DNA from: Desulfonauticus submarinus
Lineage (GTDB): Bacteria > Desulfobacterota > Desulfovibrionia > Desulfovibrionales > Desulfonatronovibrionaceae
DNA: 64,000 nt
Direction: 5' to 3'
Assembly: GCF_900104045.1 (NCBI RefSeq)
Contig: NZ_FNIN01000002.1
Coordinates: forward strand, 1 to 64,000
A program made the translations under genes and the position numbers. Of the stretch, positions 191 through 57,943 are shown piece after piece. Under the pieces are notes generated by a model. It had not been told where the DNA came from. It did no database searches and saw only the letters and a list, made by a program, of their open reading frames with translations. Position 1 is the first letter of the stretch. Each line of letters begins with the position of its first letter.

Positions 191-203
191 ACCTAAAAAA
201 TAA
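149..203. repeat. Direct repeat, copy 2
   Basis: This is the partner of the repeat at 1-56. It forms the 3' end of the 40-codon ORF at 68-190 and runs straight into the first attC. The two copies keep the same reading frame and stop codon, so the match is a duplicated gene end rather than a chance similarity. Confidence 0.7.
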
Positions 204-253
204 CACAACGTTTCAGCGGACGGCTATCGCCGCCGCTGAACTCAGCGTTATCT
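203..253 (+). repeat. attC site 1 (integron recombination site)
   Basis: R'' is ACACAAC at 203-209 and R' is GTTATCT at 247-253. Between them TCAGCGG-CGGC (213-224) pairs with GCCGCCGCTGA (229-239), with one extrahelical base, as expected of an attC folded as single-stranded bottom strand. It is short (51 bp) and resembles site 8. It marks the end of the cassette holding the 40-aa ORF. Confidence 0.75.
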
Positions 254-286
254 GAGAAAGAAATTAAAGAATAGAGGAAATTCATC

Positions 287-622
287 ATGGAAAATAAATT
301 GAAAAAGTTAAATGCATTTGATTTGACCAAGGATATTACTGATGATTGGAAGAATTTTGTTGTTAGCGAAATCAATGACCATGTTGTGCGATTGAGTGTT
401 TTGCAAAGAGATTTTCATTGGCATTACCATGCTGAGAGTGATGAAATGTTTTACGTTATAGAAGGAAAATTGTTTGTAGACCTCGAAGATAGGACCGAGG
501 AACTTAATCCTGGGGAAATGATTACAATACCCAAAAATGTTAAACACAGGACCCGCTCAAGTGAAAGAACTTTAATTCTCTGTTTTGAATCAAAAAATAA
601 TGATGTTAAAGGTGATAGGTAA
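287..622 (+). CDS. Cupin-domain protein (cassette 1)
   Basis: This is a 111-residue single-domain cupin. Motif 1 is visible as HWHYHAESDEMFYVIEGKL around residues 44-62, giving the His-x-His...Glu metal ligands. Motif 2 (GEMITIPKNVKH, around 77-88) supplies the last His. Small stand-alone cupins of this kind bind a metal and act as isomerases, dioxygenases or simple binding proteins, so the substrate cannot be predicted. GAGG lies upstream of the ATG. The gene is the only one between attC 1 and attC 2 and is oriented as in a normal cassette. Confidence 0.85.
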   Translation: MENKLKKLNAFDLTKDITDDWKNFVVSEINDHVVRLSVLQRDFHWHYHAESDEMFYVIEGKLFVDLEDRTEELNPGEMITIPKNVKHRTRSSERTLILCFESKNNDVKGDR

Positions 623-53396: not shown

Positions 53397-53651
53397 ATGA
53401 AAAAATATTTATGTTTTATAATAATTCTTATATTCGTCTTTTATTTAAATCAAAAAGTTTATTCCCAAATAAAAATTCAAACTACCCAGGACAATCTAAT
53501 TATTGAGGTCAATTCAACATTGCCCCCCGATATACTAACGAACTCTACTTTTACTCCTGAAATATATCTTCAAATCTATTTAGACAATAATACACTTCCT
53601 AAAGTTCCCAACTCAGGCCAAAATAAAAGGCAAAAAAGTAAAACCAAATAA
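53397..53651 (+). CDS. Small exported protein, unknown function
   Basis: This 84-residue protein has a signal peptide (MKKYLCFIIILIFVFYLNQKVYSQ), probably cut near residue 23. The short mature part is rich in Asn, Thr and Pro (TTQDNLIIEVNSTLPPDILTNSTF). A good AAGGAG lies before the ATG. Its last 25 codons overlap the end of the convergent dctM gene by 76 nt. I do not recognise it. Confidence 0.6.
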   Translation: MKKYLCFIIILIFVFYLNQKVYSQIKIQTTQDNLIIEVNSTLPPDILTNSTFTPEIYLQIYLDNNTLPKVPNSGQNKRQKSKTK

Positions 53652-54883
53652 CAAGGCATAAACAACAAGATACCTTTAAAAATTGTCTTCATAGAAACAT
53701 CTTTGGCCATAGAAGCCACAATAAAGGTATTAATCCCTACAGGAGGAGTTACTGCCCCTAAGGTAGTTACAATAGTAATAAACACAGCAAACCAAATGGG
53801 ACTATAGCCAAGAGAAGTTGCTAAGGGAAAAAAAATAGGGATAGTAATAATAAGAAGCGCCAGTGCATCCATAACTGCTCCACCAATAATATAGATTAGA
53901 GCAACCCCTAACATAATTAAATAAGAAGGCATATGCCAACTGCTAACACTCACTGCAAGTTCATAAGGAAGTCTTGTAACAGCTAAGAATCTACCAAAAA
54001 TAATAGCACCTAAAATGATTACCATAATCATGGAAGTAACTTTTAAGGTATCTTCTAAAGCCAAAATAAAATTACGAAAGCTTAGTTGTTTACGCAGCAC
54101 TGCGATTATTAAAGCCAAAAACGCTCCAACTCCTCCTGCCTGAGAAGGGGTAAAAAAACCAGCCAATAATCCTGTCATAACTAAACCAAACAAAACAAGC
54201 ATTTCTATTGAACCTTTTAAAGAAATAAATCTTTCTTTCCACGAAGATTTAGCAGCTGCAGGAGCAAAATCTGGTCTAAAATGACAAAATAGTCCCACTG
54301 CAAGCATAAAAAAAATTGTAAGTAAAACTCCAGGAATAAAAGAAGCCCAAAATAACACTGCAATAGATTGTCCAGTTTGCAAGCCAATTATAATTAAAAC
54401 CACACTAGGAGGGATAACAACGCCCAAAGTAGCACCAACAGCTACGCTTGCAGTAGAAAGCAATGGATGGTATTTAAATTTTTGCATTTCAGGAAGAGCA
54501 ACAGTACTCATTGTAGCTGCCGTAGCTGTATTAGAGCCACATATAGCAGCAAACCCAGCGCATGCCAAAATAGTAGCATGTACTAGCCCACCTTTAATAT
54601 GACCAAACCAATGATAGGCAGTTTCATAGAGTCTTTTATTCACTCCAGCATAAAAACAAATCTGACCCATTAAAATAAAAAGCGGTATAACAGTAAGACC
54701 ATAAGAAGAAAATACTTTCCAACACTCATCAGCCAACATACTAGAAGCAGCTTTAAAATTAATCACATAACCAAAGCCCAAGTAGCCAATAATGGCCATT
54801 GCAAAACCTACAGGCAAGCGTAAAATAAAAAGCGAAAATAATAAAACTATTATTCCTAATACACCAATTGTAATCAAATCCAC
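53576..54883 (-). CDS. dctM: TRAP transporter large permease (DctM)
   Basis: This 435-residue protein has about twelve hydrophobic helices. DctM features include LFILMGQICFYAGVNKRLYETAYHWFGHIKGGL, CAGFAAICGSNTATAATMSTVALPEM and VTTLGAVTPPVGINTFIVAS. With DctQ it takes up organic acids by sodium-coupled transport using a periplasmic binding protein. The 3' end overlaps the small exported gene on the other strand. Confidence 0.95.
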   Translation of the reverse strand: MDLITIGVLGIIVLLFSLFILRLPVGFAMAIIGYLGFGYVINFKAASSMLADECWKVFSSYGLTVIPLFILMGQICFYAGVNKRLYETAYHWFGHIKGGLVHATILACAGFAAICGSNTATAATMSTVALPEMQKFKYHPLLSTASVAVGATLGVVIPPSVVLIIIGLQTGQSIAVLFWASFIPGVLLTIFFMLAVGLFCHFRPDFAPAAAKSSWKERFISLKGSIEMLVLFGLVMTGLLAGFFTPSQAGGVGAFLALIIAVLRKQLSFRNFILALEDTLKVTSMIMVIILGAIIFGRFLAVTRLPYELAVSVSSWHMPSYLIMLGVALIYIIGGAVMDALALLIITIPIFFPLATSLGYSPIWFAVFITIVTTLGAVTPPVGINTFIVASMAKDVSMKTIFKGILLFMPCYLVLLFCLLFWPELGTLGSVLLSK

Positions 54884-54929: not shown

Positions 54930-55406
54930 TTAACTTTCTAAAGAATTATTTTTACAATTGATAAGTTGAGAAAATAAGGTAATACAACACAAAGCTATTC
55001 CCAATCCCAACACAAAAACAACTGGATAAAATGCTATATTTAAAGTTTGAGAAAGTTCTTCCCATTCTCGTAATTCCAATGCCAATCTAAATATTTGCCA
55101 ATCTAAAATAACAAAAAAAGCTAAACTAAGAGTCAAAGAAATTACATCTAAAATATATTTAGTTTTTTTTGACCAAAAATTATCTAATAAGTTTACTCGA
55201 ATATGCCCTTTTTGGGCCTGGGTGGGAGAAATAGCCATCCCACCCAGTAAAGCCCCTAAAAAACCAAGAAGTTCAAAAGCTCCTTTTATAGGGTACCCTA
55301 TAAAAGTTAAAAACATATTTAAAACTGTAAGCAACAACATCAACACTAACACTATACTACCAATTCTACAGGCTAGAAGATTTAACTTTCTAATAAAGGT
55401 TAGCAT
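54930..55406 (-). CDS. dctQ: TRAP transporter small permease (DctQ)
   Basis: This 158-residue protein has four hydrophobic helices (near 12-34, 42-62, 85-105 and 125-148). It contains the DctQ-type ELLGFLGALLGGMAISPTQAQKGHIRVNLLDNFW, where 'GHIRVNLL' is the family signature. It anchors the complex with DctM. It lies 39 bp after dctP and 46 bp before dctM. Confidence 0.93.
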   Translation of the reverse strand: MLTFIRKLNLLACRIGSIVLVLMLLLTVLNMFLTFIGYPIKGAFELLGFLGALLGGMAISPTQAQKGHIRVNLLDNFWSKKTKYILDVISLTLSLAFFVILDWQIFRLALELREWEELSQTLNIAFYPVVFVLGLGIALCCITLFSQLINCKNNSLES

Positions 55407-55445: not shown

Positions 55446-56462
55446 CTAATATCCCATTTGTTCATATTTTGCTTTAAATTTATATACATCCTGTAATATC
55501 TTTTCTGCTGGAAGCCCTTTTGTTTCAGCTCTTTTTTTCCAATTATCTATTAAAATTTTAAGCTTTTCTCTAGCTAGATCCATATCCTGTTGAGGTAAAG
55601 TAAATAATTTAAAACCATACTTTTTCTTTGCATAACCTAAAGCCTCCTGAATATGATTATCCATATAACGTCCTGTCCACAAAGCCTGCTCTTTGCCCAA
55701 TTCATTGAACACCTTTTTTATCCTTTCTGGCAAACTATTCCACTTATCTTTATTCATAACCACAGCAAAAGGATACACTTGAAAATTAGTGATTGTGCCA
55801 TAAGGCAAATAAGCAGCAAAATTTAAATCTTTTAAAACTTCAAAAGAAGTTAAAAGACCCTTGGCAACACCTTTTTGAATAGCTTCTGGGGTTTCTGACA
55901 TTGGGAGGGCAATAGGAGCTCCTCCTAAAATTTCAACAATTTTACCTGCTGCCCCAGCTGCTCTAATAGGAACGCCTTTTAGATCTTTTAAAGATTTAAT
56001 AGGTTTTTTGGACATAAGATTTGAAGGTGCTGAAGTAAACACAGTCAAAACCTTTACTCGGGCAAATTCTTTGGGATGATATTTTTGAAATATCTCCCAT
56101 AAAACCATGCTGGCAACTTTTGCAGACTTAAACCCTAAAGGCAATTCACAGACTGTAGTTAAAGGAAACACTCCTGGCTGATAAGACATTACCAAACACC
56201 CAATATCAGCTTGTCCTGCTATCACTCCTCTAAACATATTTTTCGCCCCAAGCAAGGTACCCCCGGGATATGTCTGAATAATCACTTGTCCATTTGTTCT
56301 TTTTTCAACTTCTTGTTTAAATCGCTCCATTTGAACACAAGGAAAGGTAGATGCTGGGGGAAAATTAGCATAGCTTAGCTTAATTACCTTTGCTTCTGCT
56401 CGTAAACACAAACTACATAAAAAAAACATAACAAGACCAAGGACCAAAATTCTTTTTACCAT
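55446..56462 (-). CDS. dctP: TRAP transporter substrate-binding protein (DctP)
   Basis: This 338-residue protein has a signal peptide (MVKRILVLGLVMFFLCSLCLRAEA). The DctP fold follows: LSYANFPPASTFPCVQMERFKQEVEKRTNGQVIIQTYPGGTLLGAKNMFRGVIAGQADIG, then LKDLKGVPIRAAGAAGKIVEILGGAPIALPMSETPEAIQKGVAKGLLTS. The conserved Arg for carboxylate binding is in PIRAAG. The ligand class is unknown. The gene has a structured leader ending in a terminator about 22 nt before its start. Confidence 0.95.
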   Translation of the reverse strand: MVKRILVLGLVMFFLCSLCLRAEAKVIKLSYANFPPASTFPCVQMERFKQEVEKRTNGQVIIQTYPGGTLLGAKNMFRGVIAGQADIGCLVMSYQPGVFPLTTVCELPLGFKSAKVASMVLWEIFQKYHPKEFARVKVLTVFTSAPSNLMSKKPIKSLKDLKGVPIRAAGAAGKIVEILGGAPIALPMSETPEAIQKGVAKGLLTSFEVLKDLNFAAYLPYGTITNFQVYPFAVVMNKDKWNSLPERIKKVFNELGKEQALWTGRYMDNHIQEALGYAKKKYGFKLFTLPQQDMDLAREKLKILIDNWKKRAETKGLPAEKILQDVYKFKAKYEQMGY

Positions 56463-56642
56463 CTTCTCCTCCTCATTTTTTGCTAAAAAAAAAGCCGCAA
56501 GGTTATTTAACCTTGCGGCCTGAAAAGCACCTTTATTTTTAAAAATTGTCTACAAGGCCCCCTCCAGACCGCAAAAATCTACCCAAAGCCACCAGCAATT
56601 TTGCCACTTAAAGTTTGCGGTCTGAAAGTATCTTGTAAACAT
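56463..56642 (-). promoter_or_regulatory. Structured leader of dctPQM (riboswitch or attenuator candidate)
   Basis: The dctP 5' region has two linked structures on the - strand. The first is a long helix made of CAGACCGCAAA and its exact complement (56565-56575 with 56614-56624). It is extended by an outer TACAAG/CTTGTA pair (56551-56556, 56632-56637) and encloses a 38-nt loop. The second is a terminator hairpin (56494-56519). The 3' strand of the first helix (UUGCGGUC) can also pair with the terminator's left arm (GGCCGCAA), so the two folds are mutually exclusive. No known riboswitch class was recognised. The terminator-to-start distance leaves no room for another promoter. Confidence 0.6.
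56485..56519 (-). terminator. Intrinsic terminator in the dctP leader
   Basis: GCCGCAAGGTT and AACCTTGCGGC form an 11-bp stem with a 4-base loop (56494-56504, 56509-56519). On the transcribed strand nine T residues (56485-56493) follow. The T-run ends about 22 nt before the dctP ATG at 56462, so it stands inside the 5' untranslated region. It may also stop transcripts coming from fadL. Confidence 0.85.
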
Positions 56643-56648
56643 ATTTCT

Positions 56649-56678
56649 TTTTTAACCTCTTAAGCTGTAAAAAGTCAA
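56649..56678 (-). promoter_or_regulatory. Possible promoter of the dctP leader
   Basis: On the - strand TTGACT (56673-56678) is followed after 17 or 18 bp by TTAAAA or TAAAAA (56649-56655). Transcription would start near 56642, about 5 nt before the outer strand of the leader helix. The -35 is good; the -10 is weak. Confidence 0.4.
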
Positions 56679-56695
56679 GTTTTAAACTTAATAAA

Positions 56696-57943
56696 CTAAA
56701 ACTTATAACTAACACTTAGTCCAACTAAGTGAGCTTTACCATCAGTAAACTTACCATCCTTAACTCCATCATTTCTACCATCTACGTCTCTATCTTCATA
56801 CATTAAATAGTTATATGAAAAATCAACACTCCAGTTATTAGCTTTATAACCTATACCAGCACCAAATAGATGTCTATTATTAGCAGGCAAAAGATAGTCC
56901 ACATGCTCATCAGGTATAGGGCTTTGATCATAAACATAACTTGCCCTCAAGCTTAAATTAGTAGTAGCCTTATATTCTATACCAAACTGAAATCGCCAAA
57001 CATCTTTCCAGTCCTTCTTAGAACTTGTTTGAGTATTTCCTAGGGGAGGGGTTAAATCATCGCCATATTCAATCACTAATTTATCATAGCAACTCCATCT
57101 TGTGTAAACCACATCTCCTTCTATGCTTAATTTATCAAATGGATAAAAAGTAATCCCTAAAGCATAAGAGTCTGGCAAAGTAATATCTCCTTGAACATCT
57201 GTATCTCTAAACCAAGTGGAATGAATAAGAACCAACGCTGCAGGTCTATCAAATGTTGCCCTCCCTGAGAGTCTATGCTGAATCTGACTTCTATAAATAA
57301 AACCTATTTTTAACCACTTAACAGGTACATAGTGAAAAGAAACATTAAAACCATAGTTAAAACTTTTGCCATGAACCTGAGAGTCCATATCCTCTACAAT
57401 TCCCAGGGTCGTTAGATCCTTCATTTTCTTTTTTGTAAAATCAAAATACATTCCCTCTAAACCAAAGGCAAAAGATAAGTTATCTGTTAATTTAATGGCC
57501 AAACAGGGAACAATTGAATAGGATTTAATTTCTGCATAATAAGAGTTATATCTTCCAGGCCAATTAGAAGGGAAATCTGTAGCCAATCCAAACCTTGTAA
57601 ATTCTCCTACGCCAAGCCAATATCTATCATTTAATTGTTGAACAGCATAAACATGGGGAACTAAAAACACATTGTTTTTTTCACTCGTGCTATCCTCCCC
57701 TTTAACTTTCACTGTCACATCTGGAGCAATAGCAGTAACACCACCTAAAACATGTGTACCTTTAAGTTGAGTAATTCCAGCAGGATTATAAGCTATTGCA
57801 GAAGGATCATCAGCCCTACCTATCAAAGTACCACCCAAAGCATTTCCTCTGGCACTCCATTCGTAAAGAGCAAACCCAGCTCCAGAACAAACCTGAGCCA
57901 TTACTAAACACCATAACACTGCAAATAACCAGCTCTTTTTCAT
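56696..57943 (-). CDS. OmpP1/FadL-family outer membrane transport protein
   Basis: This 415-residue protein has a signal peptide (to about residue 23, MKKSWLFAVLWCLVMAQVCSGAGF). The mature start is the FadL-like FALYEWSARGNALGGTLIGRADDPSAIAYNPAGITQLKG, including the NPA motif. The rest is a beta-barrel of alternating strands ending in Phe (HLVGLSVSYKF), as outer membrane barrels do. FadL proteins pass hydrophobic compounds across the outer membrane. Confidence 0.93.
   Translation of the reverse strand: MKKSWLFAVLWCLVMAQVCSGAGFALYEWSARGNALGGTLIGRADDPSAIAYNPAGITQLKGTHVLGGVTAIAPDVTVKVKGEDSTSEKNNVFLVPHVYAVQQLNDRYWLGVGEFTRFGLATDFPSNWPGRYNSYYAEIKSYSIVPCLAIKLTDNLSFAFGLEGMYFDFTKKKMKDLTTLGIVEDMDSQVHGKSFNYGFNVSFHYVPVKWLKIGFIYRSQIQHRLSGRATFDRPAALVLIHSTWFRDTDVQGDITLPDSYALGITFYPFDKLSIEGDVVYTRWSCYDKLVIEYGDDLTPPLGNTQTSSKKDWKDVWRFQFGIEYKATTNLSLRASYVYDQSPIPDEHVDYLLPANNRHLFGAGIGYKANNWSVDFSYNYLMYEDRDVDGRNDGVKDGKFTDGKAHLVGLSVSYKF

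Follow-up and report, generated by a model that had tools for sequence, protein, structure and literature searches.

The dctPQM operon of Desulfonauticus submarinus, which encodes a TRAP transporter, raises the question of how it comes to be transcribed. In the 64,000-nucleotide stretch of DNA analysed here (the window), a terminator stem of 13 pairs with a 4-nt loop (56521-56492, minus strand), followed by nine T, ends 22 nt before the dctP ATG (56462) and, as a preliminary description of the locus had recognised, leaves no space for a promoter in between. That description left the choice between a riboswitch and an attenuator. Mutually exclusive, conserved folds support the attenuator, whereas the aptamer that a riboswitch would need turns out to be a Trp-rich leader ORF. 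The element is very probably a trp-type ribosome-mediated transcription attenuator of dctPQM. The importer would accordingly be induced by Trp starvation, and its cargo is most likely tryptophan or an indole acid. This reading is based, by sequence and comparison, on the leader ORF, its Trp codons, three alternative helices, their conservation and a set of paralogous attenuators.

The long helix upstream of the terminator does exist, with 14 bp and an outer 10 bp in the minimum free energy fold instead of the 11 and 6 bp first given. The ORF that fills the whole of the supposed aptamer (56642-56550) had been missed. Its four Trp codons are packed into eight codons, an arrangement that none of the window's other short ATG ORFs (479 in all) shows, and its stop codon is situated between regions 2 and 3, like that of trpL. 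The locus thus combines a short leader ORF, in which the codons for the regulatory amino acid are clustered, with an intrinsic terminator between this ORF and the first gene, as expected of an attenuator. Conservation of the leader peptide is confined to the Trp cluster, plus the tail between the closest copies. Because the leaders also contain Phe and Tyr, other aromatic amino acids may elicit a minor response.

Table. Features of the dctPQM locus, its paralogous attenuators and the leaders of dctP orthologs
Feature	Location	Strand	Basis or remark
Predicted sigma-70 promoter TTGACT-18-TAAAAA	56649..56678	minus	sequence; TTGAC position shared with related leaders
Leader ORF, 30 codons, MFTRYFQTANFKWQNCWWLWVDFCGLEGAL-stop	56550..56642	minus	Trp-rich; comparable leaders in relatives
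Putative regulatory Trp codons 13, 17, 18, 20 (W-QNC-WW-L-W)	56583..56606	minus	sequence
Region 1 (CAGACCGCAAA), 5' arm of anti-antiterminator	56614..56624	minus	folds
Region 2 (UUUGCGGUCUG), partner region 1 or region 3	56565..56575	minus	folds, alignment
Region 3 (CAGGCCGCAAGG), partner region 2 (antiterminator) or region 4 (terminator)	56511..56522	minus	folds, alignment
Region 4 (CCUUGCGGC) and nine-U tract of intrinsic terminator	56485..56502	minus	sequence, folds, alignment
Shine-Dalgarno of dctP (GAGGAGGAG region)	56466..56474	minus	sequence
dctP, TRAP solute-binding protein	55446..56462	minus	PF03480; PDB sequence matches; structure model
dctQ, TRAP small permease	54930..55406	minus	PF04290
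dctM, TRAP large permease	53576..54883	minus	TIGR00786 above cut-off; PF06808
fadL	56696-57943	minus	upstream of leader, same strand as dctP
W+F+Y-coded attenuator before aro/pheA/tyrA/trp supraoperon	L125 (G000:C2:158000-172000), 13566-13406	minus	leader MNVQLSNHNLSYFWFFWYYYFMRACGLEGEL-stop
F/Y-coded attenuator before small ORF and SSS sodium:solute symporter (PF00474)	L156 (G000:C2:258800-261200)	minus	leader MNNQVVSSFYFYGYYFFGRYRTAAK-stop
Trp-coded attenuator before trpB-like gene (NF009057)	L160 (G018:C5:41900-44200), about 193-350		leader MDITCTCIASFGTAWSWRLAANGRGRGVRL-stop, two Trp codons
Leader before dctP ortholog, G002 Desulfonauticus sp. 38_4375			MKKLNFQTAALDFSWTGFWWWRSRICCGLKGAL-stop
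Leader before dctP ortholog, G023			MVLNIASIPDIWNMNWWRFWGEVRSGLDSV-stop
Leader before dctP ortholog, G057 Desulfothermus okinawensis			MKVIVASISYTWNLNWWWRFW...
Leader before dctP ortholog, G014			MEANIRSAWPNEYALYWWRR...
Leader before dctP ortholog, G010			MQGTNRSAWHIEYGLYWWR...
Leader before dctP ortholog, G004			MRNKAGSFLSEHGLNWWWP...
Leader before dctP ortholog, G012			MRENFRLIWCSTSGLYWWW...
Leader before dctP ortholog, G018			MTQNNCLDLFLPPRVQAWAWRFW...
Leader before dctP ortholog, G019			MAIYSTTQHAVFMNTRLWWWR...
Leader before dctP ortholog, G022			MRRTQFSHTFLAPVSTAWWWQWWR...
Leader before dctP ortholog, G016			MPKKIFMKFFQRYALIWWRSRK-stop
Leader before dctP ortholog, G078			MPISRTTDTCSFCCTANRWWWR...
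Leader before dctP ortholog, G260			MHTVACYPLSASFTARCWWW...

The pairing proposed earlier between a strand of the upstream helix and the terminator arm proved correct: UUGCGGUC (56573-56566) pairs with GGCCGCAA, and the two resulting folds exclude each other. The region as a whole is 5.3 sd more stable than its dinucleotide shuffles, none of which (0/200) was as stable. With a ribosome modelled as stalled at codon 17 or 18 and the RNA extending up to region 4, the 2:3 antiterminator forms (-32.0 kcal/mol); with the ribosome at the leader stop, only the 3:4 terminator is available (-21.5 kcal/mol); and with no ribosome, 1:2 forms and 3:4 is left free. In these models, 2:3 excludes 3:4 and 1:2 excludes 2:3, the behaviour expected of an attenuator. 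If region 4 is included and the fold is allowed to equilibrate, the lowest computed energy for stalls at codons 17 and 18 is again that of 3:4, so the antiterminator has to prevail while transcription is under way, as the classic model also requires.

In the mechanism that we infer, ribosome stalling included, transcription would begin at, or within a few nucleotides of, the leader ATG. With tRNA-Trp charged, the ribosome would reach the UAG and cover region 2, the 3:4 terminator would form and dctPQM would be off. With tRNA-Trp uncharged, it would stall at the Trp cluster and mask region 1, leaving 2:3 to pair, the terminator blocked and dctPQM transcribed. An untranslated leader would form 1:2 and then 3:4, and transcription would stop. 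Since a stall at the Trp codons would switch dctPQM on, the operon would encode an importer induced by Trp starvation. The transported acid or a related metabolite had been put forward as a possible ligand; the leader ORF points elsewhere, and what is sensed is most likely charged tRNA-Trp, with a ribosome as the reader, and not a ligand bound by the RNA.

Relatives conserve both the terminator and the antiterminator, which exclude each other. A stall modelled at the Trp cluster gave the 2:3 helix in all TRAP leaders tested (11/11). In an alignment of 12 sequences (11 TRAP leaders and the aro/trp leader of D. submarinus itself), the 3:4 helix is 89.6% paired and has 11 cells changed on both sides, a value reached by 0/500 shuffles, while the 2:3 helix is 82.6% paired versus at most 43% when slid. 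The covariation in relatives on which the preliminary description had made its proposal depend is present in 3:4 and modest in 2:3, because region 3, almost invariant in this alignment, must pair with region 4 as well.

In 13 other Desulfovibrionales genomes, the orthologous dctP is preceded by a leader containing two to five Trp codons, followed by a terminator; the layout is the same and the sequences are very different. The pooled TRAP and trpB-like leaders have 43 TGG triplets in the leader frame, versus 11 and 9 in the other two. A more distant bacterium (locus L070, dctP 52% identical) has the leader MKHPVINSKWAWWWQTLLV-stop, and its Shine-Dalgarno sequence is normal. On the dctP tree, the attenuator has a patchy distribution, with six state changes on the best tree, at least three of them forced by well-supported branches. 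No recognisable Trp leader was found at many TRAP orthologs, so Trp attenuation is not universal for this transporter; most orthologs of one family (f5) are without a leader, G260 being the single exception among those checked. In G007 (L161, G007:C114:655000-656900), the terminator half is kept before dctP and the Trp leader is gone, apparently a decaying copy of the attenuator. A Trp-rich ORF upstream at another locus (L075) was rejected, as it overlaps a tRNA-like sequence and is not followed by a terminator.

The -10 element of the predicted leader promoter ends 6 nt upstream of the leader ATG, which puts the predicted start on or next to the A of this codon, and the 18-nt spacer would place the first transcribed base on that A. 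A generic promoter scan did not pick up this promoter because its -10 ends in A. In 38 of 40 related leaders, TTGAC begins 35-40 nt upstream of the leader ATG (mode 36-37), compared with 1.6% of background ATGs for the same slot; leader starts were partly chosen by promoter scores, which makes 38/40 somewhat favourable, yet it lies far beyond the background. Of the two exceptions, L173 conforms when its upstream in-frame ATG is taken as the start. A Shine-Dalgarno-like tetramer is found in only four of the 40 leaders. From the position of the TTGAC box, we infer that the Desulfovibrionales leader is probably translated leaderless, as in Sinorhizobium meliloti, where trpL is a leaderless uORF whose ATG forms the 5' end of the leader transcript (PMC7298713).

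A covariance model built from Desulfovibrionales leaders and searched at E 0.01 matched 181 of 199 Desulfovibrionales genomes; the weaker of these matches are putative. The D. submarinus genome has three attenuators of this kind, before the TRAP operon, an aro/trp supraoperon and an SSS symporter. The aro/trp type is present across Desulfovibrionales, outside Rfam thresholds. In D. submarinus, the supraoperon comprises ADH synthase, DHQ synthase II, pheA, aroA, tyrA and trpE to trpA (some names were assigned by reading translations), and its leader tail (CGLEGEL-stop) resembles that of the TRAP leader (CGLEGAL-stop). A second terminator-like hairpin (AAGCCGTGTCCTCCCTGAGGATACGGCTT TTTTT; L125 8280-8420, minus strand) lies between tyrA and trpE, a possible point of internal attenuation or processing. 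The stall model gave an antiterminator in the aro/trp leader and a partial one in the trpB-like leader; in its simple form it gave none for the SSS leader.

Aromatic codons (W/F/Y) total 36/145/91 in 30 aro/trp leaders, 0/32/8 in four symporter leaders and 41/22/9 in 12 TRAP leaders. Their use differs sharply among the three groups (Fisher 2e-13 and 5e-11), values that overstate the evidence, since related genomes are among those counted and the events are not independent. Together with the Trp leader at the trpB-like gene, these totals argue that the leader codons track the controlled gene. This suggests that the SSS-family symporter is a Phe/Tyr importer. In the symporter leaders of two other genomes (G002 and G107), the aromatic codons are nearly all Phe. 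On balance, we favour an order-wide Desulfovibrionales family of leaderless attenuators that arose from one ancestral element and was re-tuned by Trp/Phe/Tyr codon swaps for the aro/trp supraoperon, a Trp/indole TRAP importer, a Phe/Tyr sodium symporter and a trpB-like gene, and in which the codons predict transporter substrates.

The mutually exclusive helices and the terminator 22 nt before dctP would also suit a metabolite-binding riboswitch, whose aptamer, the long helix, would sense the transported acid and switch between terminator and antiterminator. However, the 'aptamer' sequence varies between relatives except for the Trp codons and pairing segments, and no conserved aptamer core was found in the aligned leaders; a Trp-rich leader ORF takes its place in 11/11 aligned TRAP leaders; and the same scaffold stands before aro/trp and SSS genes with the codons changed to suit. 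A riboswitch is extremely improbable. It is also highly unlikely that the hairpin is a plain fadL terminator and that dctPQM is read from another promoter: fadL does lie upstream on the same strand with no strong terminator right after it, but both in D. submarinus and in relatives the TTGAC-18 promoter directly precedes the leader, a promoter has no space after the terminator, and the leader codons appear to track the downstream gene. Between fadL and the leader promoter (56660-56696), no terminator clearly belongs to fadL, and transcription of fadL may therefore continue into the attenuator as well.

If Trp-controlled attenuation is accepted, the cargo remains to be weighed. The two closest solved structures to DctP (structure model pLDDT 95) are Desal_3247 (4N6D; 58% identical, 1e-128, Z 44.0) and Dde_0634 (4NAP, by sequence also 4PGN and 4PGP; 51% identical, 1e-108, Z 46.1). 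Since the leader codons seem to follow the controlled gene and DctP resembles Dde_0634, the cargo of dctPQM is probably tryptophan or an indole acid. A rather unlikely variant, differing from our preferred explanation in cargo only, is that Trp-sensed attenuation serves an importer not of tryptophan but of an indole acid (indole-3-acetate, indole-pyruvate) or of some other precursor that the cell salvages to make Trp. Carboxylates are the usual ligands of TRAP binding proteins, which agrees with this variant, but the 4NAP entry was presumably solved with D-tryptophan, so the Dde_0634 family may also accept Trp; control through Trp-tRNA is compatible with both cargoes. In favour of the variant, Dde_0634 binds indole-3-acetic acid (PMC9973260, PMC9543091), and a TRAP review names 'indole acids' among new ligands (PMC5812351).

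With the E. coli trpL-type attenuator (RF00513), the dctPQM element shares a Trp-codon leader peptide, the 1:2, 2:3 and 3:4 helices and a U-tract terminator before the first structural gene. It differs in controlling a TRAP transporter and not trpE, in having its leader start codon at the predicted transcription start, and in scoring below the RF00513 cut-off (18.6 versus 41 bits; permissive scan, 56485-56603, minus strand). No Rfam family reached its gathering score in the window, in line with the preliminary description, which had matched the element to no known class; the class is nonetheless that of the classic trp-type attenuator. RF00513 exceeded its cut-off in 0/61 relatives, and its best matches there, scattered and often paired on opposite strands of one site as from a palindrome, were not used as evidence. 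Most other permissive matches in the window belong to unrelated families. The S. meliloti trpLE(G) system (rnTrpL/peTrpL) likewise has Trp codons, attenuation and a leader that starts at its ATG (predicted here), but it controls trpE(G), which the dctPQM element does not, and its released leader RNA and peptide act in trans. In the same order, a putative attenuator from the Merino database was reported in 2005 before the Desulfovibrio vulgaris aroA'-aroB'-pheA-aroF-tyrA-trp supraoperon (PMC1173090). The homologous D. submarinus supraoperon has the paralogous attenuator with the similar leader tail; its leader codes for W, F and Y, whereas in the accessible part of the D. vulgaris account neither a leader sequence nor a TRAP or symporter target appears. 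In the searchable literature, where absence is not proof, we found no description of trp attenuation at a TRAP transporter, of the attenuator before the symporter or of the leaderless geometry that these leaders share. The mechanism is classic trp attenuation; its TRAP target was found undescribed in that literature.

The locus places trp-type attenuation on a TRAP transporter and, from DNA alone, links a transporter annotated only as 'dicarboxylate' to the signal that would regulate it and to a probable class of substrates. The start-at-AUG geometry offers a testable case of leaderless initiation in attenuation control outside Alphaproteobacteria. In Desulfovibrionales, one attenuator design appears to have been reused, with its codons changed, on several aromatic amino acid genes, and the TRAP attenuator and its paralogs constitute a natural experiment in which the codons on one RNA scaffold vary with the target.
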